From Hysterangium stoloniferum (Eukaryota > Basidiomycota > Agaricomycetes > Hysterangiales > Hysterangiaceae): a DNA stretch of 64,000 nucleotides. The notes under the pieces are model-generated. The model was not told the DNA's origin. It did no database searches and saw nothing but the letters and a program-made list of their open reading frames with translations. This document shows, piece by piece, positions 1,142 through 53,645 of the stretch. The stretch is from contig WHVD01000093.1 of NCBI GenBank assembly GCA_015178975.1, forward strand, positions 62,001 through 126,000, read 5' to 3'. Within the stretch, counting starts at the first letter, position 1; the number at the start of each line of letters is the position of its first letter. The position numbers were made by a program, and so were the translations under genes.

Positions 1142-1898
1142 TGTTACAACTGTGTTGCAACCATGTCGCAACCCAATGGTCCCCAAGGATATTACCGTCG
1201 ACTGATGTTTCAATTTATTGATCAAGTCATCGCATCGGAAACCATCAGTCGCCCAACACTGACATATGCGTTCACAGCAATTAAACCCTGTTTACACCCC
1301 TGTCAAATTATACTCGTACTATTTGGTTATACTTTGATACATCCCCTTTTTATTATGATGATCCATTCTACTCTATGTTTCACATATGCCCGTATATACT
1401 TGTAACCCTTGGGCTATTTCCTTTTATCATAATTCCGCTCTCGGTTAATCCATGGCCTCCAAACTTATTGTAACCTTCCTGTTCCTAGTCAAGTTTATTT
1501 GTCAGTAATGTTTCTGCTCTTCCCTTAGTTAGTATTTTCTAGATGCCAATAACTCGTATATAAATCCACTGTACATAGTTGTAGTTACTAGGCAATCAGA
1601 ATATCAACTCAGAACACCCACATACATCTCTATAAGCCTTGCATTAAATACCCTGCTCCCCACTTCTGCATGCGCTTGCCCACCCTTGGCCTCCGACCCC
1701 TCAGCCCGACACGCGGCTTATCCTTCATTTCCGATCAGTAACTCACCGTGAGGAATTCAATAGGACTAGTCTTTGCCTGCCCAAAATTTAAGGACACCCA
1801 ACAGTAACTTGTGAGGGTGCAGCACATAAGCTGAAGCCAAGTCCTTCTGATCAGTCCCCATCGGCCTACCGACATTAGTCAGTTTTCAGTTCTTAACA
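1142..1898 (+). mobile_element. Solo LTR, family G, TSD CCCTG
   Basis: A 757-bp unit that starts TGTTACAACTGTG and ends CAGTTCTTAACA, flanked by the direct repeat CCCTG at 1137-1141 and 1899-1903. TG...CA ends and a 5-bp duplication are the hallmarks of an LTR retrotransposon insertion reduced to one LTR by recombination. A second full copy lies at 10034-10775 (minus) and an internally deleted copy at 2228-2530. The shared LTR motif is at 1812-1845. No coding sequence. Confidence 0.88.
1812..1845 (+). repeat. Conserved LTR motif, reference copy
   Basis: Core GTGCAGCACATAAGCTGAAG followed by CCAAGTCC. About fifteen copies occur in this window, in LTRs whose other sequence differs strongly. 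In most it lies about 50-120 bp from the LTR 3' end. Other copies: 3027-3060(-), 6137-6173(+), 6251-6285(-), 7337-7370(+), 7590-7623(+), 9241-9273(+), 9845-9878(-), 10087-10120(-), 11276-11308(+), 48791-48825(+), 50461-50493(+), 50744-50777(-), 52042-52075(+), 53253-53285(-). The function is unknown. Confidence 0.8.
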
Positions 1899-2108
1899 CC
1901 CTGCCAGTTCATTCAAGAAGAATCTGCATTCTCCAGAGCCTGAAGCCTCTCTAAGAATACACCCACTTGCAAACTTGGTATATATTACTTGTTCAGTGCA
2001 ACTCTGCACTACTTGATGATTGGAACCCTCAGTTAACCTTCCCTTTGTCTATAGTTTAAAATTATCTAACTACATCCATACCTTTTGTTAGACCCATTCA
2101 TCTCTTTC

Positions 2109-2907
2109 TGTTAGGATCCCAGTCATTTGCCCCCCCCCCCCCCCCCACACAACCTTATTCTACTCTCCCTACCCTCTGGCATCCTGCCATTGGTACCCCT
2201 GACCACCATGTCACCACTGACAGTGCCTGTTACGACCGTGTTGCAACCCAAAGATAACCAACAATGCTATCACCTCAAATTATCATCACAACTTCATATC
2301 AGCCATTGTCGGTAAACCCGACACTGATGTACACCCTCATGGCGATCAAACCCCACTACAGCCCCTGTCACATTATACTTGTACTATCTGGTTATACTCT
2401 GATATGTCCCTTTATCCTTTGATGATCTGTTTATTCTATGTCTCACCTATGCCTGCATATACTGTGGACTGTTTCCTTTTTTGTAGTTATCCCTGTCAGT
2501 TCCCCGAACCTCCCATCCCAGTTCTTAACAGTGCTCTGACACTTGTTCCACTATGGTTTTCCCTTTCTGTCATCCTGTCCCACCTCTGTCCTGACACTCT
2601 CCCATCACCTGTTCTACCTGTGGATGTTATCTGCCACCTCATACCCTCTAGAATACTTTTACTACATTATATTTAGTTCTAGTCTGATCCTACCCTTTTC
2701 CATGCTTCCTTTGACCCATCACTACTTCTGTTTCCTTGATTGGCCCTCCACTCACCTGTTACACTTTTGTATAAAGTTTCTACCATGTATGCTACTACTC
2801 TTCAGTTCTAATATCAATTTAAATTACCCCTGTTTAGTCTTCAGTCTTCTTACTCCCTCTCTAATATCCTCTAAGGCATCATCAGCAAGCCATGACTCTG
2901 AGCACCT
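2109..2907 (+). mobile_element. Truncated LTR, family F, host of a small solo LTR
   Basis: It begins TGTTAGGATCCCAGTC and shares its body (TGGCCCTCC... and GGCATC...GCAAGCCATGA) with the family-F LTRs at 5555 and 8708. It lacks a family-F 3' end and joins minus-strand family-I sequence near 2907. A 16-base poly-C tract sits near 2131-2146, a likely site of length instability. Confidence 0.6.
2228..2530 (+). mobile_element. Internally deleted solo LTR, family G, imperfect TSD
   Basis: It begins TGTTACGACCGTG and ends CAGTTCTTAACA like the 757-bp family-G LTR, but is only 303 bp, so about 450 bp of interior is missing. The flanks are GTGCC on the left and GTGCT on the right, a 4-of-5 match expected of an aged duplication. 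Confidence 0.72.
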
Positions 2908-3189
2908 CTTTTCTGGGAAATGTCCCATGGAGTCCCCAGGTAATAAGTCTGGGGGAGTTTCCGGGGATATTAGTACAAGGGAGTGTGGTATCAGAATAAT
3001 TACCAGAAGTGGTGTTGCTGAGAGATGGACTTGGCTTCAGCTTATGTGCTGCATCCTCATACACTCATTCAGGTGTCCATATTTCGAGCTGACAGAATGC
3101 ATGCAAGGAAGATGTAGATTCTGGAGTTCCTGTGGGAGATCCAGGAATTGAGTGTGCAGACAGACAAGAGAGTAGAGACTGGGTCAGGG

Positions 3190-3258
3190 GTGTAACTTGT
3201 TTGAGAGTGTAACTTGTTTGAGAGTGTAATTTGTTCGAGAGTGTAACTTGTTCGATAT
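3190..3258 (+). repeat. Four tandem 17-bp repeats inside an LTR
   Basis: The unit GTGTAACTTGTTTGAGA is repeated four times with one or two changes per unit (AACTTG/AATTTG, TTTGAG/TTCGAG). It lies within the family-I LTR and is absent from its relative at 50602-53051, so it arose after the two separated. Confidence 0.85.
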
Positions 3259-3441
3259 TCAAACTGGATTCTAAGTACATGAATATAGGAGACTTATATA
3301 GACTGTGAAATGTAATAATACCAAATCTGGTATTAATGAGGGGCATAACTATTAAACATAAAATGAAACAAGTAAATACCAAACTAGATATTAGGGACAG
3401 AACAGAACGGGAGTGGGGTATGAATCATGACAGGTCATTAG

Positions 3442-3896: not shown

Positions 3897-4689
3897 TCAA
3901 GTGTGCAAAATATAAGCACTCATCCCTGTGCTATCAGTGGGGATCTCCTGGTTTTCAGTAGGTAATCCACTTGAAGGTGAAACAACTGGCCTCGGCGCAG
4001 GACAAAAACGCACAATGTGACCTTCGCCGTTGCATCTATAGCAATTCTTCGGCTGTCGCATATTTGGTGAGTCGACTTTCATTTTCATGGCAATCTGACC
4101 CTCATTTTCTTTCCGCCCTTTTAGATGGCTTTCTTCCTCTACCAGCGCCGTGGAAATTTCTTCGACTGTAAGTGATCCCACATGCTGCATAAGAGCAGTT
4201 GCTACCACACCAAATTCCGGAGCCAAACAATAGATGAGGACATTCAGCACATCCTCATCACGTAACTCGACTCCAATCGCTCGAAGCTGCGAAGCCAGAG
4301 TCAAAATGCCATGGACATATTCCATCACTGGCTTTTTGACATCATGCTGATACATATAGAGCTGGCATTTTAACAAAATCCGATTGGCCTGATTATTTGC
4401 CTGATAGATTTTTGCAAGTGCTTGCCATGCCTCTGGTCCAGTGGTGCAATCCCGAATATACGATTGTTGGCTTGACGCAATTGTCAATCCAATTGCCGTG
4501 TAACCATCCTCCGAATGCTTTGCCCAATCCAAATACTCTTTGCTATTCTCATCCTTAGGTGCCTTTGTTCCACCATTAACAACACTCCATGATCCAGCGC
4601 AAAATCATTGACAGTGAAAATTTCCATTCGTGGTAGTTATCACCTGAGAGTTTTGGGATACTTGCAAGTAAGGCATTGATATTAGACAT
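3897..4689 (-). pseudogene. Copia-type gag of the TR-GAG element, one frameshift
   Basis: It starts at the ATG at 4687-4689 (MSNINALLASIPKLSGDNY, the usual start of copia gag, with the later W of YHEWKF). The frame shifts once near 4600, then stays open to a stop at 3897. The body carries the UBN2-like gag region and ends in a CCHC zinc knuckle (CYRCNGEGHIVRFC, C-x2-C-x4-H-x4-C) with all four ligands intact. Gag would form the particle and package RNA. Apart from the frameshift it is well preserved. Confidence 0.82.
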
Positions 4690-4729
4690 AAGATGATGAG
4701 ACAGTATTAGTGTGACTTTTTAAAGCAAT

Positions 4730-5554: not shown

Positions 5555-6808
5555 TGTTAGGATCCCAATTTTTTTGGACCCCCACAAGCTGCTTTAGCCT
5601 CATCATCATCCATCATCCCACTATCAGTACCCCCACTCATGGTAGCACTGCCTGCAGTGCCCCCAACACTTGTTTCTTTGTATCTCAGCACCTTAGCCAT
5701 CCATCCCACCTCCATTCTATTCACTCCTCTGTCACTGTTTCCATGTTGCCACCTCATACCTTTTAGTATACTTTGTTATATTGTATTTAGTCTTTTGCAT
5801 CCTCGTTCATTTTCCTACTTCCTCTTGACCCATCATCACTCTCATTTCTTTGATTGGCCTTCCAATCATCCATCTCCCTGTAGTATAAAGTTCTTTCATG
5901 TATGCTACAGTTTCCTCATTTGAAAATTGACTTAAATTATTTTCCCCCTTTTAGTTTTCAAGTCCTAATATTCCTACCTAATACTCTTCAAAGGCATCTT
6001 TGGCAAGCCATGATCTCACAACTCTCAGTAATTCAGCCCTCTGGTTGGGTTGATTGAGTTACAGTAAGTGTTGATATTTGTCTCCTATCATACTATCCAC
6101 TCTATTTGAAATACTGGAGCACCCTAACAGTTCATATGAGGGTGCAATGCAATGCATACATTGAAGCCAAGCTCTACTACATTTATAGAACTTATTCTGG
6201 AACTATCGGAAAGTCACCGGGAATTTGGAAACTATCAGATGTGTAGGGTCAGGATGTCAGCTTCAGCTTACATGTGCTGCACCTCTACACAAACACTCAG
6301 AAGTCCTTAATTTCAAAGGTGGGACTTATGCTGGAAGATACGGATATTTAGAGTTCCGAAGAGTTCTGAATATTGAGCATACAGAAAGATGGAAGAGGGA
6401 ATAAGAAACTAAGTTGATATCAGATCTAAAGTAAAGTACAAATTCATGGAAACTAATATAAGTCTTCTTGTTATTGTACTACAAACTAAGACCACAATAA
6501 GACGGAAATGGAAGTATTCTGAAACAGGAATACAATAAGATGGATTGGGGAGACATTATTCCAAAATGGGAATATAATAAACAAACAAGTGAATACTTGT
6601 CAATGGACAAATTACCAAATGCATAACAAGGGAAGATTATGGAAGATATGGTAACTATGATGTTCCGTAGTCAGAAGTCAGAAGTTGGATATTGAAACAT
6701 CCGGGAACGGGTCATAACAATAGAGTCGGACCTTCCAACTAGTATGATCTCTATCATCAGCCCTTCTGACTTAGAGCCTCTCCCCCCTCTTAGGCTTAGA
6801 TCTTAACA
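5555..6808 (+). mobile_element. LTR of family F, host of a solo LTR
   Basis: It begins TGTTAGGATCCC, includes GGACCCCCACAAGCTG and the LTR motif (6137-6173), and ends AGATCTTAACA. The piece before 6190 and the piece after 6719 rejoin into the same sequence as 9260-9400. No TSD is visible (left flank GATAC, right flank GCCCT), and further family-F pieces follow directly, so this is probably a tandem or recombined LTR. Confidence 0.65.
6190..6719 (-). mobile_element. Solo LTR, family S, TSD ATAGA
   Basis: A minus-strand LTR whose right end reads ...GGAACGGGTCATAACA and whose flanks carry ATAGA at 6185-6189 and 6720-6724. It matches the complete plus-strand copy at 48360-48902, but lacks the last ~25 bp at its 3' terminus (left side here). 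The LTR motif lies at 6251-6285. Confidence 0.82.
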
Positions 6809-7722
6809 GCCCTCTGACATAGAGCCCCCTCTTAACCCCTTCTTATGAGATCTTAACAATCCCCAACCACAGTGTTACCACCTGCAGCATCCTGACACAT
6901 GTTTCTCTGTAGATTACCATTTTGGTCATTCCATGCTGACACTCCTGTCACCCACATGTACATTTTATTTGCCACCTCACAACCTTTATAATACTTGTAT
7001 TTCATCACATTTAGTTTGATCCTTGTTCCTTTTCCCACTTCCTTTGACCTGTCACACTTCCCACTTCCTTCATTGGTCTTCTGATCACCCATTATATTTT
7101 TGTATAAAAACCCTATCATGTATGCTATAGTTCTTCAGTTCAAATATCAACTTAAATTATCCCTTTCATGTTTAAGCTCCTTTCCTTGCTCCTAATATTC
7201 TTGAAGATGTTGATGGCCACCCATGACTCTTATCCCCATGACCCTTAGCATTTTGGCCTTCCAGTTGATTCAGCTAAGTATCATCTTCAGTCTAAAATCA
7301 TACTACTTGCTCCTCTTGAAATACTAGAGCACCCTAACAATCTATGTGAGGGTGCAACACATAAGTTGAAGCCAAGCTCCACTTGTTTTGTAGAATCAGA
7401 CCTCCCAGTTAAGTACAAAATACCCATCAGCCCTCCAACATCATTCCCCATCTTGTCTTTAGACCTTAGATCTTATCAATGACCCTTAGAATTTCAGCCA
7501 TCCAGTTGATTCAGCTAAGTATTGTCTTCAGTTCAATTTGTACTATTGCTCTTCTGGAAATATGTACTAGAGCACTTCAACAGTTTATGTGAGGGTATAA
7601 CACATAAGTTGAAGCCACGCTCCACTTTTTTTGTAGAACTGGACCTTCCAGTCAAGTACAAAATACCCATCAGCCCTCCAACATCACTTCCCCCTCTTGT
7701 CTTTAGATTTTAGATCTTAACA
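6809..7722 (+). mobile_element. Tandem, truncated family-F LTR pieces
   Basis: Three successive pieces end in AGATCTTAACA-like termini (6858, about 7475, 7722). The last (7476-7722) is a partial duplicate of the LTR 3' third of the piece before it; both carry the LTR motif (7337-7370 and 7590-7623). There is no coding sequence. The block abuts Helitron helicase coding sequence at 7723. Confidence 0.6.
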
Positions 7723-8707: not shown

Positions 8708-9401
8708 TGTTAGGATCTCTGTCATTTTGGACCCCCACAAGCTGTTTTAGCTTCATAACCCTCCATCATCCCACTATTGGTACCCTGGCTCATGGTAGCA
8801 CTGCCTGTGGTGCCCCCAACACTTGTTTTGTTGTATTGTAGCACCTTAGCCTTCCATTACATTTGCTCCCCTATCATTGTTCCATGTATACTGTATATCC
8901 CATTTGCCACCTCACACCTTAGTATACTTTTCTATATTGTATTTAGTCTTGCATACATCCCTGTTTCCTTCCCTACTTCCTTTTGACCCATCATCACTCT
9001 CATTTTTCTGATCAGCCCTCTGATCATCCATCTCCCTATAGTATAATATTGAATTATATTACCCCCTTTTAGTTCTCAAGACCCACTATTCCTATCTAAT
9101 ACTCTCAAAGCCACAACCCCTTATGTACCTCACAACTCTTAGTACTTTGGCCCTCTGGTCAATTGAGCTAAGTGTTGATCTCTGTTTCTATTATACTATC
9201 CATTCTGTTTGAAATACTGGAGCACCCTAACAGTTTGTATGAGGGTGCAACACATAAGTTGAAGCCAAGCTCCACTACATTTATAAAGTTGGACCTCCCG
9301 ACTAGTACAATCTCTATCATTGCCCCCCCAATTAACTTGTTTCTTATCATCAGTCCCCCTGACTAAAGCCCCCTTCTTTCCTTTTAGCTTAGATCTTAAC
9401 A
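8708..9401 (+). mobile_element. Solo LTR, family F, TSD ATGAC/ATGAT
   Basis: A 694-bp LTR beginning TGTTAGGATCTC and ending AGATCTTAACA, with near-identical flanks ATGAC (8703-8707) and ATGAT (9402-9406). It is the cleanest copy of family F in the window. The LTR motif is at 9241-9273. Confidence 0.78.
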
Positions 9402-9784: not shown

Positions 9785-11230
9785 TGTTAAGGTGCGTGCA
9801 GAGCTTAGTGGAGGGTTTCCAGAGAAATCCACGATAATCTGGTAGGACTTGGCTTCAGCTTATAGGCTGTGCCCTCACAAAATCATATTGTCCAATTTCA
9901 AACAGGTGGACAGGAAACCTGGGGAGTCCCAGTGTAGTTGATAGATTGAAAGACCAGTTGGGAAGCCCACATGCTCTGATGAGGTCAATAGTGAGCATTA
10001 TAATATGGGAGATGGGGATGGAGTGAGGACCAGTGTTAAGAACTAAAAACTGACTAATGTCAGTGGACCGACGGGGACCGATTGGAAGGACTTGGCTTCA
10101 GCTTGTGTGCTGCGCCCTCGCAGTTATCCATTGGGTGTCCTTAAATTTCAGGCGGGTGAAGAGTAGTCCTAATGAATACCTCTCGGTGAAACTACCAATC
10201 GGAATCGAAGGATAAGTCGAGTGTCGGGCCAAGGGGTCCAGGACCGAGAGGGGGCGAGTGCACGCGAAGGCGGAAAGTGGAATACTTAGTATGAGATTTC
10301 TATAGTTGTAAGAGGGTATTCTGAGTCGATATTCTGATTGCCTAGTGACTACAACTACAGTGGGTTCATATACAAGTAACAGGGGTCTAGAAAATACTAA
10401 CTGGGAGAAGAGCAGAACACGGTATTGACAAGTAAACTTGACTAGGAATGGGAGGTTACTATTAGTTCGGAGGCCGTGAAATAACCGAGAGCAGAATTAC
10501 GAAGAAAGGAAATAGTTTGAGGGTTACAAATATATATAGACATATGTGAAACATAGGATAGAGTGGATCATCATAATAAAAGGGACATATCAGAGTTTAA
10601 CCAGATAGTTCGAGTATATTTTGACGTGGGCGTAAATGGAGTTTGATCACCATGAAAGCATACGTCAGCATCGGGGGCCGATGGTTTCCAATGTGATGAC
10701 TTGAACAGTAACTTGAAATCGTCGAAAGGTGGTGATAACCTCAGAGACCAATAGGGCTGCGACACGGTCATAACAACCAGTTGGAAAGCCTGTGGGCTCT
10801 GACGAGGTCAATAGCGTTGTAAGATGGGGATGGAGTGGGTATATACTGAGTAACTGGAGGAGGACTTAGTCTGAAAACTTAGTTGATTTTCTGACCAGAT
10901 TGTATGTACAACATTAGCTAGTTTATATAGACTGTAGAATGTATGCAATACCAAATCTGGTAATAATGAGATCCAAACAAGTAATCATGAAATGAGATAA
11001 GTAAACACCAAATTAGGTGTTAGGGGTGGAATGGAACAGAGGTGGAGTCCAAAACATGACAGGTCATTAGACCATAATGGGAATGGGGCTCAGTTAAAGA
11101 GCTGTCAGGTTATCCAGGCTTTGACATGTGCAGGTCCCAGCAGAGTCCAATGAGTGATGCACAAGATACAGAGGGTTGGGTGTAGATGGGCTTGATGTCT
11201 GGGTCCCGGTGGGGTTTTCTGGTCCTAACA
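9785..11230 (-). mobile_element. LTR, family J/H, minus, host of a solo LTR
   Basis: Plus-strand left end TGTTAAGGTGCGTG, right end TTCTGGTCCTAACA. It is interrupted by the solo LTR at 10034-10775. An internal ~75-bp tandem duplication (ACCAGTTGGGAAGCC... at about 9951-10028 and 10776-10841) brackets that insertion. No TSD could be matched (AGGA left, CACAA right), so the ends are approximate. Confidence 0.55.
10034..10775 (-). mobile_element. Solo LTR, family G, TSD ACCAG
   Basis: 742 bp; left end TGTTAAGAACTAAAAACTG, right end CACGGTCATAACA, with ACCAG at 10029-10033 and 10776-10780. It is the reverse complement of the family-G LTR at 1142-1898. It lies at the fourth level of a nest: Helitron, LTR J, LTR H, LTR G. 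Confidence 0.85.
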
Positions 11231-11376
11231 CACAATTCCTGTGTCCCCTCTCTGAAGTTGGATACAACAATCATGCAAGGGTGCAGCACATAAGCTGAAG
11301 TGAAGTCCTATCTGCCACCTGGATTATCTGTGAGTTTCCCCTAGAGACCCCTGTAAACCCAAAGCTTAACAATTAT

Positions 11377-15321: not shown

Positions 15322-16284
15322 TTATTGGTTAGAACGAAGATTGGGAGGGCAGGTGGCAGATGGAAACACAGGCTCAGAATTCGTGTACAGTCTAGATTGT
15401 TGGAGGTAAGATAAATGAACGCTATAAGAAGATGGAGGTGGCTCCAGTTTAGGAGGGAGTGATGCGTAGAAGGGCTCAGCGGATGTAGGAGGCTCCAGTT
15501 CAGGAGGGAGTGATGCGTAGAAGGGCTCGGCGGATGTGGGAGGCTCCAGTTCAGGAGGGAGTGATGCGTAGAAGGGCTCGGTGGATGTGGGATGATAAGA
15601 CGAAGAGGGTAAGGATGTCGTAGGAATTTCTGTCAGTTCAACCAGCTGCGTGACCCATTGTTGGCGTGTGATCTGTATCCAGCCAGCATCAGTCATTGCT
15701 TGATGTTTGGAATACCGGGCATGCTTTTTGGCTGATGTGCCAGTAGATTTATCTAACGAATATTAGCAAAAATGGAGCTGACTGAGAAAATATAAAGCTT
15801 ACTTGGGGTCACCCAGGTGATTGGAGGAGGAGATCCAGATACTCTCTGCAGTCGTTTATCTCATGAAAATTAGCAAAGAACATCCAGAGGGAATGTGAAG
15901 CTTACTGGCTATCACCACTGAATGCTCAGAGGATGTTGATGATCCCCGCTGTCGTTTATACTGTCTCAATGGAAGTGCACTTGCAGATGTTGAAGACTCA
16001 ATGATCTGTGGAGTACACGGTGTGGGAACCTAGAGCCATTCAACTACAAAATGCTGGAAATTTTCAGCATTCACCCAATTTATAGCATTCTTGTTGGAAA
16101 GAAAGTCGCCAGATGCTTCAATGATACCAGTAGTGAAGTACTGAAAGAATTAACAATCAATTTAGCTGTTGTCCGCACTCCAAGGCGTAAATATTTATAC
16201 ACTCACTTTTGTCCAATACACTCTGATAATGTCATCTCCTGCCACTTTGAGAAGGCTTGACAGGTTGATTGAGCTGGAAGACAT
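15322..16284 (-). CDS. Unknown multi-exon protein with 17-residue repeats
   Basis: Model: exons 16207-16284, 16048-16140, 15906-16005, 15803-15859 and 15322-15752, giving 252 aa. Introns are 66, 42, 46 and 50 nt; three have good donors (GTGAGT, GTAAGC, GTAAGC), two with a TGCTAAT branch site. The frame is consistent across all joins. The 42-nt intron (GTAGTT...CCACAG) is needed to remove an in-frame TAG at 16030-16032; without it the product ends after 62 aa. The N-terminus reads MSSSSINLSSLLKVAGDD. The last exon holds three copies of PFYASLPPELEPPTSAE-like repeats. No domain is recognised and I assign no function. Confidence 0.5.
15435..15590 (-). repeat. Three 51-bp tandem repeats in a coding exon
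   Basis: Period 51 bp (17 codons), so copy changes keep frame. The units differ by only a few bases. They encode a Pro/Glu-rich segment with FYASLPPELEPP in each copy. Confidence 0.88.
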
Positions 16285-21226: not shown

Positions 21227-23203
21227 CCGCCCCCCGTGATGTTTTTTTTTTACCAACCAGCTTTCGAAAATTATTATTGCTAACTCCGATGCTTGTTTTT
21301 GAAATATACTCGACAGTCGTTAACAAATCACGTCGTCCCTTTACTTTCACAATACCCTGGTTAATGAGCCCGCCTAGCTCATTGATACCCATTTTTACCG
21401 GCCCTCCTTGGTGGTCGTATCGATTGACTCTTGATGTCCATCTTATGGTCTACTTTCCTTCGACTATAAATAATACCTTTCCTCGGGGCAAATTATCTTG
21501 TTTCCATTTCATATGTTTCCCATAGGGGTGAATGTCACTTTTGAAAAAAAAAAAACTTTTTTAGCCATGGCGGAAATCAAAGTGGAAGGTTGACTCTTAA
21601 AGTGTGATCTCGAATAAACTGATTGTATAAAAAAACAGGTACTGCGTCAGCCGGGATCAACATGCCATACATTGAAGCGCTTTAGCATGTGTTCTCAGTT
21701 TAGTGTCTGCCACATGATGATCCGATGATCCCAAGTGCGCTCTTCTGACGCTTGAAAAAAAAAAACTTTGATGACCTGGGTGTAGTCGAATCTTTCCATA
21801 TTTCGACACTTGTGTCATCTTGTGGAAGCTTGATGGCTAGAAATACCATTATAAATGAGGTGGTTGCTCCGTTTCAACGCTCGAGACGCAGAAGCAGATC
21901 CCTCCCAGGCGGCACTGATATATCTTGGCAAATCTACGTTTCGTGTCGTCTAGCGCTATCTCGGAGTGCTCCCTAGTTCAATTAATCTCAGACGGCCATG
22001 ATGTCCTTTTAGTATTCACTGGCTACTTCCTATATATATAAGTAGAGAAAGGATGTGATACTTAGACTCTTTTACTCGAACTTTTATCTACCTAAATAAT
22101 TTCCGACTGGAGGAAGATGTCCAGCAGACAGCCTTCCACTAGTTTGGCGTGTTCATCCGAGACTGGAGTGGAAAGGCCAAGTGCAACTTCCAAGTCGGAA
22201 AAAATGGGGTATACATTGATCAACATATAAGCGGCTTTGATGAGTATTGCTGGGCCGTGATGGTGTGTTCCAGGGTCATGCCCTTCCTCAGATCAACTAC
22301 AGCCCCATTCCACTGAGATTCCAAGTTGGTTCAGTAAAACTTCCTGAAAAATTATTATGAGCATTTCCGTAAGTATATTTTGTATAACCTGAAGCTATAA
22401 GGGCTGTGCGGGGATTTTTGACCATTTTTGTCGCGCTTCGTGGAGAGTCACTGGAGTATGGCGACAAAGGGGACTCAAAAAAATAAATTCCTGGAGTTGC
22501 ATTATAGAGTCATAAATATTAATTTTCTTTCCATCAAAGGGTTTTATGAATATATCGTGATACTCTGAGCCGTCATATCAGTAAATTCCGGCGAAGTTTG
22601 GTAGGTTGTCACATGTCGCCAGGGAGTCCGCGAATCGACCAGACGTGGACAATCAATCAAAATTATTATAGAGTAATTTTAATTGGGGTGAAAAGCAGTA
22701 TTTGATGCTTTCAGATCCAAAGACACCATGGAGAGTTAAATTACCTGTAATGGATTAACTCTCACGCAGTTTTTGTGTTATTTATTTAAACGCAACGAGC
22801 CTAAGGCGGAGTTCGAAATTTAAAGAAAAATCCCCGCTTCGACCCAGACAAATTGTGCCATATGTCAAGAATGAGGCCCAATTAAGACACAATAATTTGG
22901 GATGTGTATGATATAGTATACCTATAAATCCATGTATATACTTGGCCTGACAACAAGGTATTTAATATTGAGTCAAATATCAGTGCAGTACCGAAGAGAA
23001 CACGTTTGACTCGACTAAAGGCAATTTACGCACACGCATCATAATTTCACACTAAACAGACAACAAAATGACGACACATGCGGAACAGAAGACGAACAAT
23101 CGAAAATGTAGTCACGGGAATCTTCTGCGGAGTATTGTGACACCAACATTACCATGCTGGGATTAAAGAAATATGCCTGCGGGAAATCCAGTATCCCATC
23201 AAT
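21227..23203. other. Intergenic with a possible short gene start
   Basis: About 2 kb. A TATA-like run (TATATATATAAG, ~22032-22043) is followed by a pyrimidine-rich leader and an ATG at 22117 opening MSSRQPSTSLACSSETGVER, but the frame closes after 37 codons and no convincing second exon was found. 22790-22870 resembles 40985-41055 (GAGTTCAAAATT... and GACAAATTGTGC), a shared dispersed repeat. From 23126 the sequence belongs to the duplicated F-box unit. Confidence 0.4.
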
Positions 23204-24903
23204 TCAATCAACAACTTCTCGATGCTCGTGCAAGCCCATGAACATATCTCCCCAGTACAGGCTTACTTGTCCTGTCTCATAAACCTCCACATCGTAAAAA
23301 TTTTCAAGGTGTCCTTGAGTATCCCTGACCAGAAGAATATGTCTATAATACCCCTCCACGTATTTAATTTGAGTGCCTCGGCATAGAGTGCCCATGTATA
23401 TACGGAAGCTCATGGTTTCGTCGACTGGAATGGATTGATGGCCTTCGGGCGACAATACCTTCCATTTGAAGACCCCGTTTAGATACCTTAATTTTTGGAG
23501 GGAGGAAAGGGAGGCTATGTGGGCATCTAGCTGCGTTAAAGCAGTATTAGAATGACACAGATGAGAACGAAAAAAAAAAAAGCTTACAATAATAGGCGGG
23601 GTAGTATGTGTTAACCCAATATCGGCTTCCAATCTTTCCAAGTCCTTGAGGTATGGGAAAAAATCGGGGAGAAAACGGGATGCACCGTGGACAATGAGAC
23701 TGCGTAACAAGGTCATGGGCTTGAAAAAATCAATGTCGCACTTGCTGAGGGATGCCTCTAAATGGGTAAGACGTTTAAAAACTTCATGAGGAAGTGTCAA
23801 TGTGAGCGGGATGTCTCGGTTTGGAATCGCCAGTGACCTTAAATGAGGTAATGAGTGCGGAGAAATCCACGGGAGGCTCCACCCCGTTTGACGCTCAAAT
23901 ATCCCCCTCGATAGATGAACACATTCGAGCATTTGATGTCTATCCCAGAACTGTGAAAGAATACGAGCCCTGTCAACATCTGTTGCATCAGCTTCGAAAA
24001 GATAGATGTCAATGATAGTGAAGTGAGTTAAAAGTGGCCAGTGCCCCTGGAGAAGGAGGGAGGGAATATTAGGGCACATGACCATACCAAGATAGAGACA
24101 AGTGAGAGGTGGACAGGGGATAATCATTTGTGTGACAGCGTCTTTTAAGGGGGGATCCTCCCCTGCATTATAATAATCTCCATAGGCAATATGGATGGCG
24201 ACCCGACTAAGATTCTTCAAATCCCAGAACTAAAATTGATCAGAAATATACATCACACGGATGACAGGATGACAAACTGCTAGGTCCGAAACTAAAAATC
24301 TATTTCGACTTTCCGGCAACTCCATACTACTTAACATCGATACGTGAAAGTCCTCTAAATGGGGACATGAAGCCACAAGTTTGAGAAAAAAGTTAGCTGT
24401 TGCAGTTGCCGAGATTTCCAACGGATGCGCCGCGATAAAAGTCTTCAAATTCCCCATGCGTGAGATCGCCTCGATGCATGGTGCCAGCTGATGTGCAGGA
24501 CGCGCCACACTCTGAAACCTTGGTTCATTTTCATCTTCAAGAGCGTCCGTTATACCGACCGGGTACAAAATTGGCACACCCTCAGATTCTTCCAGGGTTT
24601 CATCGACGAGACGGACAAAATAGATACGCAGGGCCAATTGCGGATGAAGATTGATCGCATTCCACACTTCGTCCCGATGGAAATCACAACGAATGTATCG
24701 CATTTGAGCGTAGTAAGGGATGATTGTTTTAGCAAAGGATGAGCACGTATATCCGAGGCTGGTGAGATCAACAGGGTCTTCTATCCAAGCCAGTATCATA
24801 TCAAAAAGCTCGAAGGGAAGTCCGGCAAATCTCGAGCGTGTACTCATGATAGCTTGTAAAAACGCGTATGTAAACAGCGAACAAGTGGATTTGGTTCCGA
24901 ATA
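23126..24903. repeat. F-box duplication unit, copy A
   Basis: This block (23126-24903) matches 27518-29310 along its whole length, from GCGGAGTATTGTGAC past the F-box start codon to ACAAGTGGATTTGGTTCCG. Identity by eye is roughly 90% and includes both introns. It marks a direct segmental duplication of one gene with short flanks. Confidence 0.9.
23204..24847 (-). CDS. F-box / leucine-rich-type protein, copy A, 3 exons
   Basis: Exons 24278-24847, 23588-24229 and 23204-23530; introns of 48 nt (GTTTGT...TTTTAG) and 57 nt (GTAAGC...CGCAG). The product is 512 aa. The N-terminus is an F-box (FAGLPFELFDMILAWIEDP, then LGYTCSSF), which in known proteins binds Skp1 and links a substrate to an SCF ubiquitin ligase. 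The rest has irregular Leu-rich blocks (LRSLAIPNRDIPLTLTL, LKDLERLEADIGLTH) such as F-box proteins use for substrate choice. The second intron happens to be readable in frame in this copy; comparison with copy B (56 nt, frame closed) shows that it is an intron. No disabling change. The substrate is unknown. Confidence 0.83.
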
Positions 24904-25388
24904 GAGCGCTTCTTTAATTGGACCCATACCACCACCACAACGAATTTTCCCACTCCCCAAAGGCCAGCAACGAGGGATTATCGTAAGTCTGCTTCCCAGA
25001 TCCAGCTCTAACCTACACAAGAAACCTCACCTATCCTCTCCACACCTCCATACTATGGCACCCCAAAACCCGAACAACCTAAACACACCAACTCAAACCC
25101 AAAGTTGGGCCTCTGAATCTCCACTAACTTTCCCACACCATTTCACCCCATACTGCCCATACCATGAGATTATTTCCTCCTCCATACTTCACAGTTGGTG
25201 TTGTTGTTCAGTTACAGTGACTCTCAACACCTTTTCAATGTTTGACATTTGCATATTGGCAGGCCATAGAAAAAATAGCAAAATATCTCAAAAAAATACA
25301 GTATATAGCTAAACATATGTAGAATCAGTGTCTAGAATATTATTATGTAATATCCATTTTTGGGTATGCTAAAAATAGTTTATTCAGG
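24848..25388. other. Spacer with a possible truncated gene start
   Basis: After the F-box upstream sequence, a CT-rich leader (CCTATCCTCTCCACACCTCC) precedes an ATG at 25055 opening MAPQNPNNLNTPTQTQSWAS. The open frame is lost near the Tc1-like element at ~25211-25389. It could be the 5' end of a host gene cut by the transposon. 25211-25270 holds ACAGTGACTCTC and ACCTTTTCAATG, possibly the outer end of the Tc1-like element. Confidence 0.3.
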
Positions 25389-27302: not shown

Positions 27303-27594
27303 ACATCAGGAAAGTGGGAAGATCAGTAAGTATGCCATCTATATTGTCTAGAGCCGCTAGCTAGACTCGGCTAGACACCCTACTTTCACAAGATCCCTAT
27401 TTACTAGTCAGTATAAAAGCTTACTATAGATCTAGGGACTCTAGGAAGGCTAGGGAGTCTACATAATGGGTGTAGACATTCCCAAATCCCTGATGGAATC
27501 TTGAGCAGCGCGAGACTGCGGAGTATTGTGACGCCAACATTACCATGCTGGGATTAAAGAAATATGCCTGCGGGAGATCCAGTATCCCATCAAT
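27303..27594. other. Spacer between Tc1 element and F-box copy B
   Basis: It contains short direct and inverted repeats of CTAG-rich sequence (GCCGCTAGCTAGACTCGGC, CTAGGGACTCTAGGAAGGCTA). The F-box duplication unit B starts at 27518. Confidence 0.5.
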
Positions 27595-35338: not shown

Positions 35339-36300
35339 TTAAATTTCTTTGCGATGTTTTCGATGTATTCCTTTTGTGATATGAATAGACTTTGAATCAG
35401 TGTTTCGACAAATGCTTGTTCCCAGAATCCAGTGAGCATCTCCTTCGCTCGAAATCCCAAATCGTTCACTAAATGCCTTTTCGAGATCTAAGAGTTGTTT
35501 TTCATCACTGACAGCTGTTGCATCGTCCACCCAAAAAGCAACCACAGCCCAACTTCCATCATCCCGTGTCTTAAAGAATGTAGTGCTGTCAAAGTCGGAA
35601 CAGTACCAGGTAAGTTCTTCGACCATAAATCCATATAACGTTTTTCTCCACTCATTTCCTCCTTGTTTCATGCCATACAGGGCCTTCAATAACGGCAATG
35701 CTAGGTGCTCCTTTCTGGGTTCTTCAAATCCTTCCAGCTGCTGAACCCAAACTTTCTCCTTCATCGTCCCATGTAAGTATGCTGACTTTACATCAAATTG
35801 ACGTATGGCTGAATTCGTTATACCTCCCAGCACTAGCAAGATTTGGAACATTTCCCATTTCATAACTGGTGCATAGGTTTCATTAAAGTGAAGACCGGGA
35901 ATCTGACTGAAGACCGGGAATCTGACTGAAGACCGGGAATCTGACTGAAGACCAGGAATCTGACTGAAGCCCTTGACGACAATGCGAACTTTTTGCTTCA
36001 CAAGGTCACTGTTTTTGTATGTTCCACGACATACAGTTCCTGTCTTCAAAATTCATGTTCTGGGTGGCAGTTCTTCAGGTGGTCCGAACACATCATGATC
36101 CAACATATTTTGCCATTCTACTTGTCGCACCTTCTCTCCCATGTGGCTCCTTCTTCTCCTGGCATGTTTAGTGCCTCCTGGATCGGTGGATTACTTCCTA
36201 TGGCAGAATACATAATGAGTCCTTCATCGTGTCCAGCTTCTTCCTCATCTGCTAAAATTGCATTTCCAGCTATTTCTCTTATATTTCCAGATTGTGACAT
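35339..36300 (-). pseudogene. Copia reverse transcriptase, with a 19-bp repeat expansion
   Basis: Text from the start: IQEALNMPGEEGATW (entry to the RT), KTGTVCRGTYKNSDLVKQK, VVKGFSQIPGLHFNETYAPV, SAIRQFDVKSAYLHG, LKALYGMKQGGNEW, and AVVAFWVDDATAVS, where WVDD takes the place of YVDD. A frame break and stop lie near 36050. Between VVKGFSQIPG and HFNETYAP a 19-bp unit is repeated four times, adding 19 residues. Confidence 0.9.
35889..35968 (-). repeat. Four 19-bp tandem repeats inside copia RT
   Basis: The plus-strand unit GAAGACCGGGAATCTGACT occurs four times with one change (CCGGG/CCAGG). Three extra units equal 57 bp, so the RT frame is retained while the domain gains foreign residues. GGGAATCTGACT within the unit is identical to a variant 12-mer of the minisatellite at 51256-52843. 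Confidence 0.85.
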
Positions 36301-36402
36301 TCCACACAGGATATCAGGTATGTTTGAAATTAGCTGTGACCAATCTGATGATGTACCAATTTCTTTTCCTTTTTCATCAATGGGTCTTGGATGTGGAGGA
36401 AT

Positions 36403-37518
36403 TCATATTGTGAGCCTAGGCTGTGGTTCGTCTGGCATCACCTTTAATTGAGGTTTGTAAATTTCCTTCATATCTGCAACATTTCTAAATTGTCCTTCAT
36501 CTCCATACAGGACTGGTGATGGCAATGTCATCACATTTTCATGGAATATTGCATCCCGCACCTTTTCAATACATCTAGACCCAGGATACCATACCAAGTA
36601 ACTGGTGGAATATGGTTCATATCCAACCATATATCCCATTCTAGAACGTGAGTCCAATTTCTGTCGTCTTTGTTTAGGAATAGCAATGCTGACTGGGCAG
36701 CCGAAAATTCGTAAATGGGATAGATCTGGCCTTTCCCCAGTAACATGTTCAATTGGCATGTGTCTGTCATTCATTTGAGTTGGACTTTGGTTTTTCAGGT
36801 ACACCATCATCTTGACAGCTATGGACCAAAGGAACTTGGGCAGTTTTGATGAATACAACATTGATCGGCCCCTATCAGAAATTGTGTGTATGCCCCTTTC
36901 TGCAACTCCATTTTGCTGAGGTGTATAAGGAATTGAGGTGAACAATGATATGCCTTTGGATGATAGATATCTCCTGAATTCCGAATTGATGAACTCGGTC
37001 CCATTGTCTGCCATTACACCTTGGACCTTTGCATTAAACTGCATCTCAAGTTTCTGTATGTATTCTCGTATTTTCTGAACAGCCTCCAATTTGATTGCTA
37101 ATGTGTCAATCCATACAGCATGTGAGTAATCGTCAAGGATTATTATGAAATATCATTTCTTATCGAAGCTTATTGTCTCCATCGGTCTGGCTAAATCCAT
37201 GTGGAGGAGTTCCCCAAGTCATGTCGCTTGAGTTCGGCCGGTTTTGAAAAGAGTGTGATGTTGTTTTCCTTCAATGCAAGCAATACAGTCTGCTTCGAAT
37301 TCTTCATAATCGTCGATTTCAATTCCAGATGCAAAATGCTGTGCCAGATTTCGGATGGCAGCTGTGTGTAGATGGCCCAATCGCTGATGCCATAACATCA
37401 AGTTGCTTGGCAATTTCATAGAGTATGCTACAGGTATGTTGTCCAAATTTTCTTGTAACTCGCCTTCTGATAAATTTGTATACCTGCATATTGATGACGA
37501 GGCTGGAATCATCCTGAA
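36403..37518 (-). pseudogene. Copia integrase
   Basis: N-terminal zinc site: LWHQRLGHLHTAAIRNL...CIACIEGKQH (His, His, Cys, Cys). Core: DNGTEFINSEF with a catalytic Asp, then YTPQQNGVAERGIHTI with the catalytic Glu. The C-terminal part has PIEHVTGERPDLSHLRIFGC, the GKKP-like end common to copia integrases. The frame changes between 37090 and 37219. Confidence 0.9.
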
Positions 37519-47845: not shown

Positions 47846-47967
47846 TGCTTTGCTAGTTGATGCCTTATTTCTTTGAGAATGTTCCATCAGATTTTCTTGG
47901 GAAATTTCCACTTTTCATTCCCAATAGCAGGCCACATGAGTTGGAGAGTTTTTGGCTTTCCTTCTTT

Positions 47968-49172
47968 GGAGGATATCTGAAAACTATTAAGTATACCAAA
48001 TTCTAATATACTCTAAAGGTCATTTAAACATCTGGGATGTGATTCAAACACAATTTGGTTTTTAAAACTTTCAAAAAGTTTTAAACTCTCTCATACATTA
48101 CAAACTAAAGAATCTTTCTGGACACAAGTAGACAATGAAAAAAATTAGTAGTTTGAAACACTAATACTTTTAAAAAATAGATACCTTTAGATAGTCCATT
48201 CCATGCATATGTATATCATTGGCACCTCTAAATACATATGTATTACTTCAAAATAGATCTGTCAATGATTCAACATACCCAGAATATATAGGTAATTTCA
48301 CTTAATAAAGAAGGCCATAGGATGAAAAATTTCCAATAACATCTCATATATTTTACTAGTGTTACGACCCGTTCCCGGATGTTTCAATATCCGACTTCCA
48401 ATCTCTGGCTACGGAACATCATAGTTACCGTATCGTCCGCCTTCTTCCCTTGTTCCGCATTTGGTAATTTGTCCATTGACAAGTATTCACTCGTTTGTTT
48501 ATTATATTCCCGTTTCGGAATATTGTCTCCCTGATATGTCTTATTGTATTTCCATTTTAAGATTATTTCCGTTTCCGTCTTATTATGGTCTTAGTTTGTA
48601 GTACAATAACAAGAAGACTTATATTAGTTTCCGCGAATTTGTACTTTACCTTAGATCTGATATCGACTTAGTTTCTTATTCCTTCTTCCGTCTTTCTGTA
48701 CGCTCGATATTCGGAACTCTTTGGAACTCTGAATATCCATATCTTCCTTTGTAAGTCTCACTTCTGAAATTAAGGACTTTGAGCGTTTGCGTAGAGGTGC
48801 AGCACATAAGCTGAAGCTGACGTCCTGACCCTATCCGATAGTCCCGACTTCCCAGTGACTTTCTGATAGTTCCGGAATACATTCCCGACACGGCACTTAA
48901 CAACTAGGAAATAACTACAGTTTAGTTTTTAAAAAACAAATTAACAACAAAAGTATTAGCAAGTATTTACATAAATTGGAAAACTATATACAATAGGTTC
49001 TATTAATTGACTCTGAATTATTTAGGATGTAATATGAAGAATTGTTTCTTATGATTGGTGGTTAACAATATAATACTCTCAGAGGATATGTCACTATTTA
49101 AAGATGTATTTTTGTAGCAATTTTGCTTTTATTAGTAAACATTTGATATTATAATGATTATGGACAACCTCC
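47968..49172 (-). mobile_element. MITE-like DNA transposon, copy 2, carrying a solo LTR
   Basis: It reads GGAGGATATCTGAAAACTA at the left and ACAACCTCC at the right, the reverse complement of the element at 39025-39690, with TTT on both sides (47965-47967, 49173-49175). Without the solo LTR and its duplicated ACTAG it is 657 bp. It lies in gypsy gag at a site whose empty form is visible at about 46655-46665. Confidence 0.82.
48360..48902 (+). mobile_element. Solo LTR, family S, complete, TSD ACTAG
   Basis: 543 bp; TGTTACGACCCGTTCCCGG to GGCACTTAACA, flanked by ACTAG at 48355-48359 and 48903-48907. It keeps many CG dinucleotides, unlike its relatives at 6190-6719 and 53176-53645, so it is probably the youngest of the three. 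LTR motif at 48791-48825. Confidence 0.92.
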
Positions 49173-49776: not shown

Positions 49777-50547
49777 TGTTATGACTGGAATTCCCACCAG
49801 ACTCCAGGCACTAACTTATATGCACCCACACCCTATATGCACCAATTGTCAGTTTACCGGAATTCCCACTGGACTCTGTACATCAGACTTGTCCACGTTT
49901 GACTTCGTTATGTCATGTATCAGTCACCGGAATACCTGCCGGACTCCATCCCTGTCTATGTCTGACTCTGTCCCACACATCAGTCACTGGACCCCACTCA
50001 GAAAACCCATCGTCCCTCTAACTGAGCCCCGTTCCCGTTATAGTCAAATGACCTGTCACAATTCGGACTCCGCTCCCATTCCATTCCATTCCTAATACCA
50101 AGTTTGGTGTTTACTTATCTCGTTTTATGTTTGTTAGTTTCATTTTCATTATTACTGGATTTGGTATGTTATTCATTCCACAGTCTATATAGTCTGGCAG
50201 ATGTTGTACATACAATCCAGTCAGAAAATCAGCTTAGATTCTCCCCAGTAATCTAGTACATTTTCCGCTCTAAACTCCTCTTTGAATTACACTGCTCTCG
50301 CTAGTCAGAGCCCACGGGCTCTGACGCATCTATCACTCAACCTCCACCTTATTTATCTCGACTCCCCGACCTCTCAACCCACGACCCCTCAACCCACAAA
50401 CTCCGCCCAGACTCCCTGGGATTCCCATCCACCCATTCGAAATTGGACAACCCAATCTCGTGAGGGTGCAGCCTATAAGCTGAAGCCAAGTTCTACCAGA
50501 TTTCCTGCAGGTTTCTCCAGAAACCCTTTGTGTACACACCCTTAACA
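49777..50547 (+). mobile_element. Solo LTR, family A/B, TSD GGATA
   Basis: 771 bp; TGTTATGACTGGAATTCC to CACACCCTTAACA, flanked by GGATA at 49772-49776 and 50548-50552. It splits the gag codons VVKY/PNTPEV. Nearly the same as 51321-52128. LTR motif at 50461-50493 (CCTATAAG in place of CACATAAG). Confidence 0.92.
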
Positions 50548-51255
50548 GGATATTTCACTACCTCAATGACTTCTTCAATGGAAGCTGATGTTGTGGGCTG
50601 ATGTTAAATTCCGGATCTCAGGGTGGATCTTCCAGGGATATTCCAGACACTTCCCAGAAATATGTCCTTGGAGTTTCAGAGAATTAGTCTGGGAGTTTCC
50701 GGGGATTAGTAACGGGAGTATCGAAATATTATCAGAGTACAGATGGACTTGGCTTCAGCTTATGTGCTGTACCCTCGTGCACTCACTTGGGTATCCATAT
50801 TTCAGAGGATGAATATATGTTGGAATGTTTATGGATACTCAGAAGTTCTGGGAGTTCCAGATATCTGGAGTCCAGAGAGTTCCAAAGATTGAGTGTACAG
50901 AAAGACAGAAGAGATACAAACTAATTTGAGATTGAAACTAAAGAGTAAGTACATGGCTATGGAAGACTATATAGATGTTCCAGTAATTGTACTACAAATC
51001 TAGAAGTATAATACGACAGATTAGGATGAAGATTCTGAAATGGGAATACAACAAGAACAATAAACAAGTGAATGAATAACTGTTAACCTGTCAGCTACTA
51101 AATATGGAACAAAGATGAGGTTCAGAAATATAGAAACTATAAATGTTCCATAGTCAGAAGTCAGGTCAGATTTTGAGGTGGATGTTGTATCGGATATTGA
51201 GGTGGATGTCAGAAAGTCGGATCAGAGACTTGGGGTGAAAAGTCAGATCAGAGAT

Positions 51256-52843
51256 GGGAGTCTGACTGGGAGTCTGACTGGGAGTCTGACTGGGTGTTTG
51301 ACTGGGAGTCTGACTGGGAGTGTTACGACCAGAATTCCTGCTGGACTCTGGGCACTAACTTACATATGTATATGCACCCACCTCCTATATGCACCAATTG
51401 TCAGTTTACCAGAATTCCTGCTGGACTCCATACATCAGACTTGTCCACATTTGACTTCGTTACTTCATGTATCAGTCACCGGAATACCTGTGGGACTCTG
51501 TCCCTGTTTATCTCCAACCCCATCCCACACATCAGTCACCAGACCCCGCTTGGAAAACCCGACATCCCTCTAACTGAGCCCCATTCCCATTATAGTCAAA
51601 TGACCTGTCATGATTTGGACTCCGCTCCTGCTCCATTCCCATTATGGTATTATGACCTGTCACAATTCAGACTCCACTCCATTCCGTCCCATTCCTAACA
51701 CCAAGTTTGGTGTTTACTTATCTCATTTTATGTTTGTTAGTTTAGTTTTCATTATTACTGGATTTGGTATGTTATTCATTCCACAGTCTATATAGTCTGG
51801 GAGATGTTGTACATACAATAAGTCAGAAAATCAGCTTAGATTCTCCCCAGTAATCTTAGTATATTTTCTGCTCTAAATTCCTCTTTGAATCACACCGCTC
51901 TTACTAGTCGGAGGCTCTGACACATCTATCACTTGACCTCTGACCTATCTATCTCGACTCCCCGACCTCTCAACCCACAAACCTTGCCCAGACTCCCTGG
52001 GATTCCCGTCCACCTGTTTTAAATTGGATAAGATGATCTCACAAGGGTGCAGCCTATAAGCTGAAGCCAAGTCCTACCAGATTTCCCGTGGGTTTCTCCG
52101 GAAACCCTCTGTGTATGCACCCTTAACAGGGAGTCTGACAGGGAGTCTGACTGGAAGTCTGACAGGGAGTCTGACTGGAAGTCTGACAGGGAGTCTGACT
52201 GGAAGTCTGACAGGGAGTCTGACTGGAAGTCTGACAGGGAGTCTGACTGGAAGTCTGACAGGGAGTCTGACTGGAAGTCTGACAGGGAGTCTGACTGGAA
52301 GTCTGACAGGGAGTCTGACTGGAAGTCTGACAGGGAGTCTGACTGGAAGTCTGACAGGGAGTCTGACTGGAAGTCTGACAGGGAGTCTGACTGGAAGTCT
52401 GACAGGGAGTCTGACTGGAAGTCTGACAGGGAGTCTGACTGGAAGTCTGACAGGGAGTCTGACTGGAAGTCTGACAGGGAGTCTGACTGGAAGTCTGACA
52501 GGGAGTCTGACTGGAAGTCTGACAGGGAGTCTGACTGGAAGTCTGACAGGGAGTCTGACTGGAAGTCTGACAGGGAGTCTGACTGGAAGTCTGACAGGGA
52601 GTCTGACTGGAAGTCTGACAGGGAGTCTGACTGGAAGTCTGACAGGGAGTCTGACTGGAAGTCTGACAGGGAGTCTGACTGGAAGTCTGACAGGGAGTCT
52701 GACTGGAAGTCTGACAGGGAGTCTGACTGGAAGTCTGACCGGGAATCTGACTGGGAGTCTGACTGGGAGTCTGACTGGGAGTCTGACTGGGAGTCTGACT
52801 GGGAGTCTGACTGGGAGTCTGACTGGGAATCTGACTGGAAGTC
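51256..52843 (+). repeat. 12-bp minisatellite, about 65 units, split by a solo LTR
   Basis: Unit GGGAGTCTGACT. A short arm (51256-51320, about 5 units) and a long arm (52129-52843, about 60 units) were contiguous before the LTR at 51321-52128 inserted. From about 52141 to 52740 the array is a near-perfect 24-bp dimer (GGGAGTCTGACT plus GGAAGTCTGACA), about 25 times; the right end returns to single 12-mers. Because 12 is a multiple of three, it is open in several frames on both strands ([20 protein letters not shown]), which yields long but spurious ORFs. Confidence 0.95.
51321..52128 (+). mobile_element. Solo LTR, family A/B, inside the minisatellite, TSD GGGAG
   Basis: 808 bp; TGTTACGACCAGAATTCC to GCACCCTTAACA. 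The duplicated GGGAG (51316-51320, 52129-52133) is itself part of the 12-mer unit. LTR motif at 52042-52075. Confidence 0.9.
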
Positions 52844-53175
52844 ACCTACTGAAGGGCAGAGTCCAATGAGTTCCGGGTCATAACAGGAGGTGTCTAAATG
52901 AGGGCAGAATACCAGAATGGGATTTGCCTTGAAGGGATGAGGGTCGGGTTCCAGTAGATTCTGGATCTTGATACTGGTCTGGAAGATGGTTTGGAACCAG
53001 AGATAATATCTGGGAAATACTCTGAAGAGTTTCCAGGAACAGATCTTCACAGCTGACTAGGGTTTTGGATTGAGTGCTATAAAGTTGCAATGGGGATTGA
53101 AGTTGGGATGGTCCTTCAGCAGCTTTGTGTTTGGGACCTATGATGAGTGATTCACAGGATTGAAATCTGATATAC

Positions 53176-53645
53176 TGTTAAGTGCTGTGTTGGGAACGTA
53201 TCCCAGAACTATCAGGAAATAACTGGGAACTTGGAAACTCCTGGATAGGGTCAGGACATCAGCTTCAGCTTATGTGCTGTGCCCCTATGCAAATACTTGG
53301 AATGTCCTTAATTTCAGAGAAGGGATTTACACCAGAAGATTATGGATATTTAGAGTTCTGAAGAGTTCTGAATATTGAGTGTACAGAACAAAAGAAGGAA
53401 TATGAAACTAAGTCAATATCAGATCTAAGGTAGAGTACAAATTTGTGGAAACTAATATAGGTTCTTTCATTATTGTACTACAAACTAGGATCACAATAAG
53501 ACAGATTAGGGAAGTATTCTGAAATGGGAATACAACAAGCAAATGAATGAATACTTGTTAACTGACAAGTTACCAAATGCAGTACAAGGATGAGGTTCAG
53601 AATTATGGGAACTATAAATGTTTGGTGGATAGAAGTCAGATGTAC
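53176..53645 (-). mobile_element. Truncated LTR, family S
   Basis: It begins TGTTAAGTGCTGTGTTGGG, the reverse complement of the end of the LTR at 48360-48902, and follows it to about 53645, where it breaks off before the ...GGGTCGTAACA end. LTR motif at 53253-53285. Strongly CG-depleted. Confidence 0.72.

Follow-up and report, generated by a model that had tools for sequence, protein, structure and literature searches.

A short block shared by divergent LTRs of Hysterangium stoloniferum: a candidate leader RNA element in apparently self-primed Ty3/gypsy retrotransposons

A stretch of 64,000 nucleotides from the basidiomycete Hysterangium stoloniferum (assembly GCA_015178975.1, contig WHVD01000093.1, positions 62,001 to 126,000; the window hereafter) is crowded with retrotransposon long terminal repeats (LTRs) that differ greatly from one another and yet share one short block close to their 3' ends. 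A preliminary description, made from the letters of the window, counted fifteen copies of this block in supposedly unrelated LTR families and proposed that it has a function. Is the block truly common to differing LTRs, where does it lie in the elements that carry it, and what might it do? Our answer is that, on balance, the block probably acts in cis as an RNA element of the transcribed leader (R or U5) in a self-primed Ty3/gypsy lineage.

Conservation of the block and kinship of its carriers

Fourteen copies in the window, counting both strands, match a 28-mer of the block at up to nine mismatches, while six of six shuffled cores gave no match; a 20-mer at up to three mismatches found 11 copies against none expected. 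The count given in the preliminary description therefore held for fourteen copies, the fifteenth being recovered neither at nine or fewer mismatches of the 28-mer nor at three or fewer of the 20-mer, and its claim of a real block common to differing LTRs stood; shuffled and reversed controls all gave zero. Genome-wide (111 Mb, 554 contigs), the exact 20-mer occurs at 1,479 places, the type with CAAC/GTTG arms at 311 and the family 1b type at 848 (partly overlapping the 1,479), and a CpG-intact 26-mer, which reads GCGCAGC instead of GTGCAGC or GCACAGC, has 2,263 exact matches; the reversed control was zero in each case. CpG sites inside the block are often TG or CA across the genome, as if methylated LTRs had been deaminated, and full-length elements are among the carriers of CpG-intact copies. 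Since GTG and GCA variants are the expected outcome of CpG decay, the core sequence first described is probably itself a decayed form.

The window and 20 extra genome stretches yielded 79 block places, and clustering of their flanks gave families 0, 1a, 1b, 2 and 3 and a small family 6, with three of 80 modules outside all of them. To compare the LTRs between families, six hand-picked copies, one per family, were divided into 28-nt segments, every tenth of which is reported here. Over the block, the median best identity was 21-25 of 28 positions, compared with a null of 15 +/- 0.7 (maximum 17); the weakest partner there reached 15-19 of 28, the motif of the family 6 copy being damaged. Segments reported from elsewhere in the LTRs had medians of 13-18, including 17-18 in the zone of the TATA box and primer (the family 1a piece may stop short of, or run past, the true LTR end). 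Between families, no part of the LTR but the block is strongly shared, and the suggestion that a function was held while the surroundings drifted fits these values. Because the copies were hand-picked and their loci fetched by the motif, the comparison speaks for families that carry the block and is silent on families that do not.

The proteins of these elements tell of closer kinship than their LTRs. A reverse transcriptase (RT) query from one fetched stretch (L035, contig C3) is 99% identical to the RT enclosed by a family 2 motif pair of ATATAAG form on contig C1, 96% identical to the RT at C1:27815 (family 2) and 88% identical to the RT at C24:976303, an RT enclosed by the family 1b motif pair C24:974006/980948. 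No family 0 RT was present among the 150 RT places listed. To judge by these sequences, the families form one lineage and are not independent: the label "unrelated" was wrong at the protein level, where the family 1b and family 2-type RTs are 88% identical, and the alternative raised at the time, one ancestral LTR that diversified around the block, was right in outline. At L012:5914 (-), a family 6-like left side is joined to a family 3-like right side (AAGCTCCA), perhaps an inter-family recombinant.

Full-length carriers and their primers

The carriers of the block are Ty3/gypsy LTR retrotransposons. Their LTRs begin with TGTTA and end with TAACA, and perfect 5-bp target-site duplications (TSDs) flank five LTRs of the window and a TSD with one mismatch a sixth, while our script found none for the remaining eight window copies; stretch L018 added two further perfect 5-bp TSDs. 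For the seven window copies with a placeable LTR end, the distance from motif to LTR 3' end is 54 nt for those at 1817 (+), 10088 (-), 50466 (+) and 52047 (+), 78 nt at 48797 (+), 79 nt at 53255 (-), measured from a remnant of the primer-binding site (PBS), and 129 nt at 9245 (+). In full-length elements the block stands on the sense strand in both LTRs. At four places on C1, same-strand motif pairs 6.8-7.3 kb apart enclose same-strand RVT_1 matches (e.g., motifs 270245/277289 around an RT at 272596, and motifs 2163510/2170788 around an RT at 2165894), and the paired LTR regions of three fetched elements are 99.9%, 96.3% and 100% identical. Four pieces of the pol frame of L035 give, in Ty3/gypsy order, matches to protease, RVT_1, RT_RNaseH, and Integrase_H2C2 with rve; L035 is linked to the block by RT identity (99% to the RT between the C1 motif pair) and not by LTRs of its own. 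Among solved structures its RT is closest to 7q5b, named Ty3-G, and 4ol8, which we take to be Ty3. Chromoviruses, the clade to which Tf1/sushi elements belong, have a chromodomain at the integrase C-terminus. Chromodomain candidates number 2,268 genome-wide; among the 150 that were scored, some belong to frames about 1,300 aa long, and none of those listed falls in the motif-bearing C1 elements.

How these elements start reverse transcription is suggested by the sequence just inside them. In all three fetched elements, a PBS 2 nt beyond the 5' LTR shows exact 10-nt complementarity to a stretch of the element's own LTR that sits downstream of a TATA-like box. A scan of 133 candidate ends at offsets of 0-39 brought four more exact primer/PBS matches (three in family 0, one in family 1b); exact matches fell four times at offset 2, four times at offset 3 and once at any other offset, and one-mismatch matches were scattered over the offsets, 0 to 7 at each. 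When extended, the exact complementarity came to 11 nt in seven of seven cases (the three fetched elements and the four scanned copies), the primers being AATCAGAATAT in family 2, AGTCAGAAAAT in family 0 and AGATCTGATAT in family 1b, each with A as its first base. For family 3, a PBS predicted from the start following the TATA box has 24 genome matches (reversed control 0); among the 12 on contigs with listed motifs, three lie 128, 124 and 95 nt 3' of a same-strand family 3 motif and nine have no listed exact motif alongside.

The family 1b PBS pattern, with 262 genome matches, could be set against the motif pairs themselves. We compared 100 listed places of the 848 motifs with 37 PBS places typed from 100 listed of the 262 (up to C24:974111), and 20 of the 37 had a listed motif nearby. 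Of the 16 motif pairs among these listed places, 13 have a PBS after the 5' copy, always 72 nt away, and none has one after the 3' copy. A PBS must show exactly this, standing after the 5' copy only, and the pattern therefore fixes the sense strand and places the block in the transcribed leader. The elements thus look self-primed, a trait not mentioned in the preliminary description, with a PBS complementary to the putative 5' end of their own transcript, and by the same comparisons the genome appears to hold at least four primer/PBS types.

From the inferred start to the block is 134 to 399 nt, mostly 215-270. Eight of the 14 motif copies in the window stand downstream of both a TATA box (at -33 to -38) and a self-primer that has one mismatch or none. 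The preliminary description had considered a leader element, and the position of the block 3' of the inferred start agrees with this; its suggestion of a transcription start element fails, and we ruled out the block as TATA box or start site, because TATA box and primer lie upstream. Taken together, the location of the block on the sense strand of both LTRs, 3' of the TATA box and likely start and 5' of a PBS with 11-nt complementarity, is well supported at the level of sequence. Three leaders measured from start to first internal ATG span 339-361 nt and contain no other ATG. We discarded this as proof of scanning: 48, 5 and 34 of 500 shuffles were also ATG-free, the three elements include a near-identical pair, and the post-LTR stretch is ATG-free by the way its end was set.

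Folding of the block and explanations of its conservation

RNAalifold, given 42 copies (drawn at random within families from 75 of 82), found a hairpin unaided, in which C-A-G-C pairs with G-C-U-G on a GGC..GCC base. The hairpin, CAGC-NYAUAA-GCUG, varies to CAAC..GUUG and CAAUG..CAUUG with its pairing kept: in family 3, A-U replaces G-C (9 of 41 rows), in the window copy at 6147 U-A replaces C-G, and a loop-closing mismatch is turned into a pair in three rows (A-U twice, G-C once). In the four-pair stem 98.2% of cells are paired, a percentage equalled by none of 500 shuffles, and sliding the stem partner abolishes the pairing. Two of the four pairs show change on both sides, and 9 of 500 shuffles reach two. 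The RNA structure proposed in the preliminary description was in this way supported, by a hairpin with paired changes.

A plausible outer stem is GGAC/GUCC, in family 3 GGAGC/GCUCC. MAFFT misaligned its 5' arm, so this stem was tested by arm duplexes only, over the 75 copies, where matched arms gave -39.4 against a permutation mean of -32.5. We regard a short RNA hairpin of the block, seated on a GGC..GCC base, as moderately supported, and the GGAC..GUCC stem may close it. A second conserved hairpin 3' of the block was rejected (family mean z of -0.28 to -1.30, no clearer than upstream segments at -2.04 to +1.20), and a middle stem, CACCC/GGGTG, visible in families 2, 1a and 3 and not in 0 and 1b, was dropped. 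Searches with Rfam 15 gave no hit at gathering score in the window and none at E up to 5 in L049, L051 and L053.

We infer that the block serves as a signal for priming or packaging. The hairpin would be recognised by a protein of the element (RT-RNase H or Gag) at the time when element RNA is chosen, folded and primed. Such recognition would explain why the sequence is fixed although the block lies anywhere from 134 to 399 nt after the start and, in the window, 54-129 nt before the LTR end; with its fixed letters and free position in a self-primed leader, the block is better matched to recognition by a protein than to a role in a fixed geometry. A further step, which we consider rather doubtful, is that the block is a common RNA signal by which families with different LTRs and self-primers are selected by the same or interchangeable element proteins, or by one host protein, so that families, defective copies included, could be copied by each other's machinery.

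Several observations weigh against a leader RNA element of this kind. The hairpin rests on few independent changes: the covariation term contributes only -0.5 of the -8.14 kcal/mol of the RNAalifold consensus, the change from G-C to A-U occurs in family 3 only and possibly arose once, the second paired change is seen in a single sequence, and further pair types are not above chance (464 of 500 shuffles reach them). An inverted repeat in DNA would show identical paired changes. Folding z-scores of the 74-nt module range from -3.24 to +0.96, mostly -2 to +1, over the 28 copies reported (a third of the copies taken at random and three chosen by name; of the 79 copies two had been excluded, L012:9072 as a chance-like match and L009:8300 as broken), and we discarded folding energy as proof of the hairpin. 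For the outer stem, the matched arms rank only 36th of 720 permutations, driven mainly by family 3, and in three of six families an arm finds its best partner within its own family. As to position, six of the 14 motif copies in the window lack a primer that the script could find, and for family 1b an exact listed motif is missing next to 17 of the 37 typed PBS places. All 20 extra stretches were chosen for an exact block match, and gypsy families without the block would thereby be missed.

The chief rival, in our view unlikely and yet the first to be weighed, is that the block forms the poly(A) signal hairpin that marks the R/U5 border and that its loop, YAUAAG, is a degenerate form of AAUAAA. 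Lying 3' of the inferred start and, in the window, 54-129 nt before the end of the LTR, the block would be suitably placed for such a signal, and a regular-expression scan of three fetched LTRs found neither AATAAA nor ATTAAA. According to excerpts of PMC3601003, the poly(A) motif of Metaviridae is likewise conserved near the LTR 3' end, and Sushi-clade LTRs carry their AATAAA motif significantly closer to that end. That motif is AATAAA, however, whereas the block is longer and different: AAUAAA is the loop in none of the 42 aligned copies, and a poly(A) signal leaves the conserved GAAGCC, the flanking letters and the 28-nt length unexplained.

Somewhat less probable still is a DNA site, in which the block would be an inverted repeat to which a DNA-binding protein of the host or the element attaches, e.g., a transcription factor acting downstream of the start. 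CAGC..GCTG and CAAC..GTTG are inverted repeats in DNA too, and palindromic motifs are reported in Sirevirus LTRs (PMC2829016, in part); but the block lies inside the inferred transcribed leader, and GAAGCC, beyond the palindrome, is nearly fixed as well and is not symmetric. That the block has no function and is shared by descent from one diversified ancestral LTR, or by recombination between families, we consider improbable: the RTs do show one lineage (88% between the family 1b pair and the query), but at that kinship an LTR that drifted to near the null while the block stayed at 21-25 of 28 needs either constraint or repeated short exchange.

The window and its relation to known elements

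The family 2 copy at 1817..1844 (+), without mismatch, is enclosed by a solo LTR at 1142..1898 (+) with the perfect TSD CCCTG/CCCTG; its putative transcript start and self-primer, ATCAGAATAT, at 1595..1604 (+) has a TATA box at -38 and lies 222 nt 5' of the motif, and in intact elements the match runs one further A 5'. A family 2 copy with two mismatches at 10088..10115 (-) stands in a solo LTR at 10034..10775 (-; perfect TSD CTGGT), with the self-primer ATCAGAATAT at 10329..10338 (-; TATA at -34). Family 1a is represented at 3027..3054 (-; one mismatch), with the inferred self-primer GTTTGAATAT at 3255..3264 (-; TATA at -36), and at 50745..50772 (-; one mismatch), and the minor family 6 at 11281..11308 (+; two mismatches).

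Family 3 includes a divergent copy at 6147..6174 (+), whose stem CAATG-CATA-CATTG keeps its pairing in spite of nine mismatches and is preceded by an inferred self-primer, one mismatch from GTTTGAAAAT, at 5918..5927 (+; TATA at -34). Copies with the CAAC..GTTG stem and four mismatches lie at 7352..7379 (+) and 9245..9272 (+), the latter 129 nt before the 3' end of an LTR at 8708..9401 (+) with TSD ATGAC/ATGAT (one mismatch), and a decayed copy lies at 7595..7622 (+; seven mismatches). Family 1b copies are found at 48797..48824 (+; five mismatches), in a solo LTR at 48360..48902 (+) with perfect TSD ACTAG and the self-primer GATCTGATAT at 48654..48663 (+; TATA at -34; 143 nt 5' of the motif), and at 53255..53282 (-; seven mismatches), with GATCTGATAT at 53416..53425 (-; TATA at -34) and a PBS remnant at 53164..53173 (-), one mismatch from the primer complement and 2 nt past the LTR end at 53176.

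Family 0 has a copy at 9845..9872 (-; four mismatches) and another at 50466..50493 (+; three mismatches), the latter in a solo LTR at 49777..50547 (+; perfect TSD GGATA) with the self-primer GTCAGAAAAT at 50220..50229 (+; TATA at -34). Its copy at 52047..52074 (+; two mismatches) belongs to a solo LTR at 51321..52128 (+) with perfect TSD GGGAG and GTCAGAAAAT at 51822..51831 (+; TATA at -33); a repeat array adjoins this LTR, and its right end has alternatives. The array, at 52126-52843, consists of about 60 units of 12 bp (AGGGAGTCTGAC/TGGAAGTCTGAC), and a short related array stands directly 5' of the LTR, from about 51231. Since the TSD GGGAG belongs to the unit and a related array lies in front, the LTR seems to have been inserted into the array.

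Other repeats and genes accompany these LTRs. Ty1/copia remnants at 3897-4532 and 35339-37089 (gag with zinc knuckle; integrase, RVT_2) lie outside the listed motif-bearing LTRs, and a 120-bp direct repeat at 3442-3561/4748-4867 may represent the LTRs of the remnant at 3897-4532. A 1.8-kb direct repeat, 92% identical and without the motif, occupies 23125-24904 and 27516-29306; two frames in its left copy had no Pfam match. A 51-bp unit is repeated three times in tandem at 15431-15592 (units 2 and 3 are 92% and 88% like unit 1), a 563-aa frame at 58028-59719 with DDE_1 and a Tc5-type DNA-binding domain is an apparently open DNA transposase, and one protein of the window matches DUF3669, a domain found mainly in ascomycetes.

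Self-primed reverse transcription has, to our knowledge, been shown experimentally in few elements. The elements described here resemble Tf1 of Schizosaccharomyces pombe and the Tf1/sushi group, including Tj1, in having a PBS complementary to the first nucleotides of the transcript; in that group, RNase H cleavage of the transcript sets the primer free. A U5-IR stem-loop is reportedly required for Tf1 reverse transcription, to go by the title of a paper by Lin and Levin from 1998; the likeness would be that a self-primed element has a stem-loop in its leader, and Tf1 is in this respect a precedent for a need of leader structure in addition to primer complementarity. Excerpts of the sources state that Tf1 self-priming also uses 11 nt (PMC7175516) and that the PBS of Tj1 matches the 5' end of its own mRNA (PMC4600332). 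Apparently unlike Tf1, H. stoloniferum combines several primer/PBS types (at least four) in a single genome, and its families with differing LTRs share a leader hairpin of fixed sequence. Sireviruses are similar in that very divergent LTRs retain short conserved motifs, some of them palindromic; they differ, according to the same excerpts, in being plant Ty1/copia elements with a tRNA-type PBS, and the motifs named for them are polypurine tracts, junctions, the TATA box, an integrase signal and CGG-CCG repeats (PMC2829016).

Relatives of the block numbered zero in viral contigs and zero in prokaryote genomes, and of 46 papers in the open literature that contain one of three short motif strings, none of the 10 listed concerns retrotransposons. 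Self-priming is already known, and what may be new is the shared sequence-fixed leader hairpin, of which no example common to several self-primed families appeared in Rfam or among the matches listed from the open literature. The genome of H. stoloniferum offers thousands of copies of the block and several primer/PBS types that change together, along with a second conserved leader element of variable position, and so allows one to ask what a self-primed element requires of its RNA in addition to primer complementarity. It likewise illustrates the extent to which LTRs may drift around an unchanging part while the RTs are still 88% identical.

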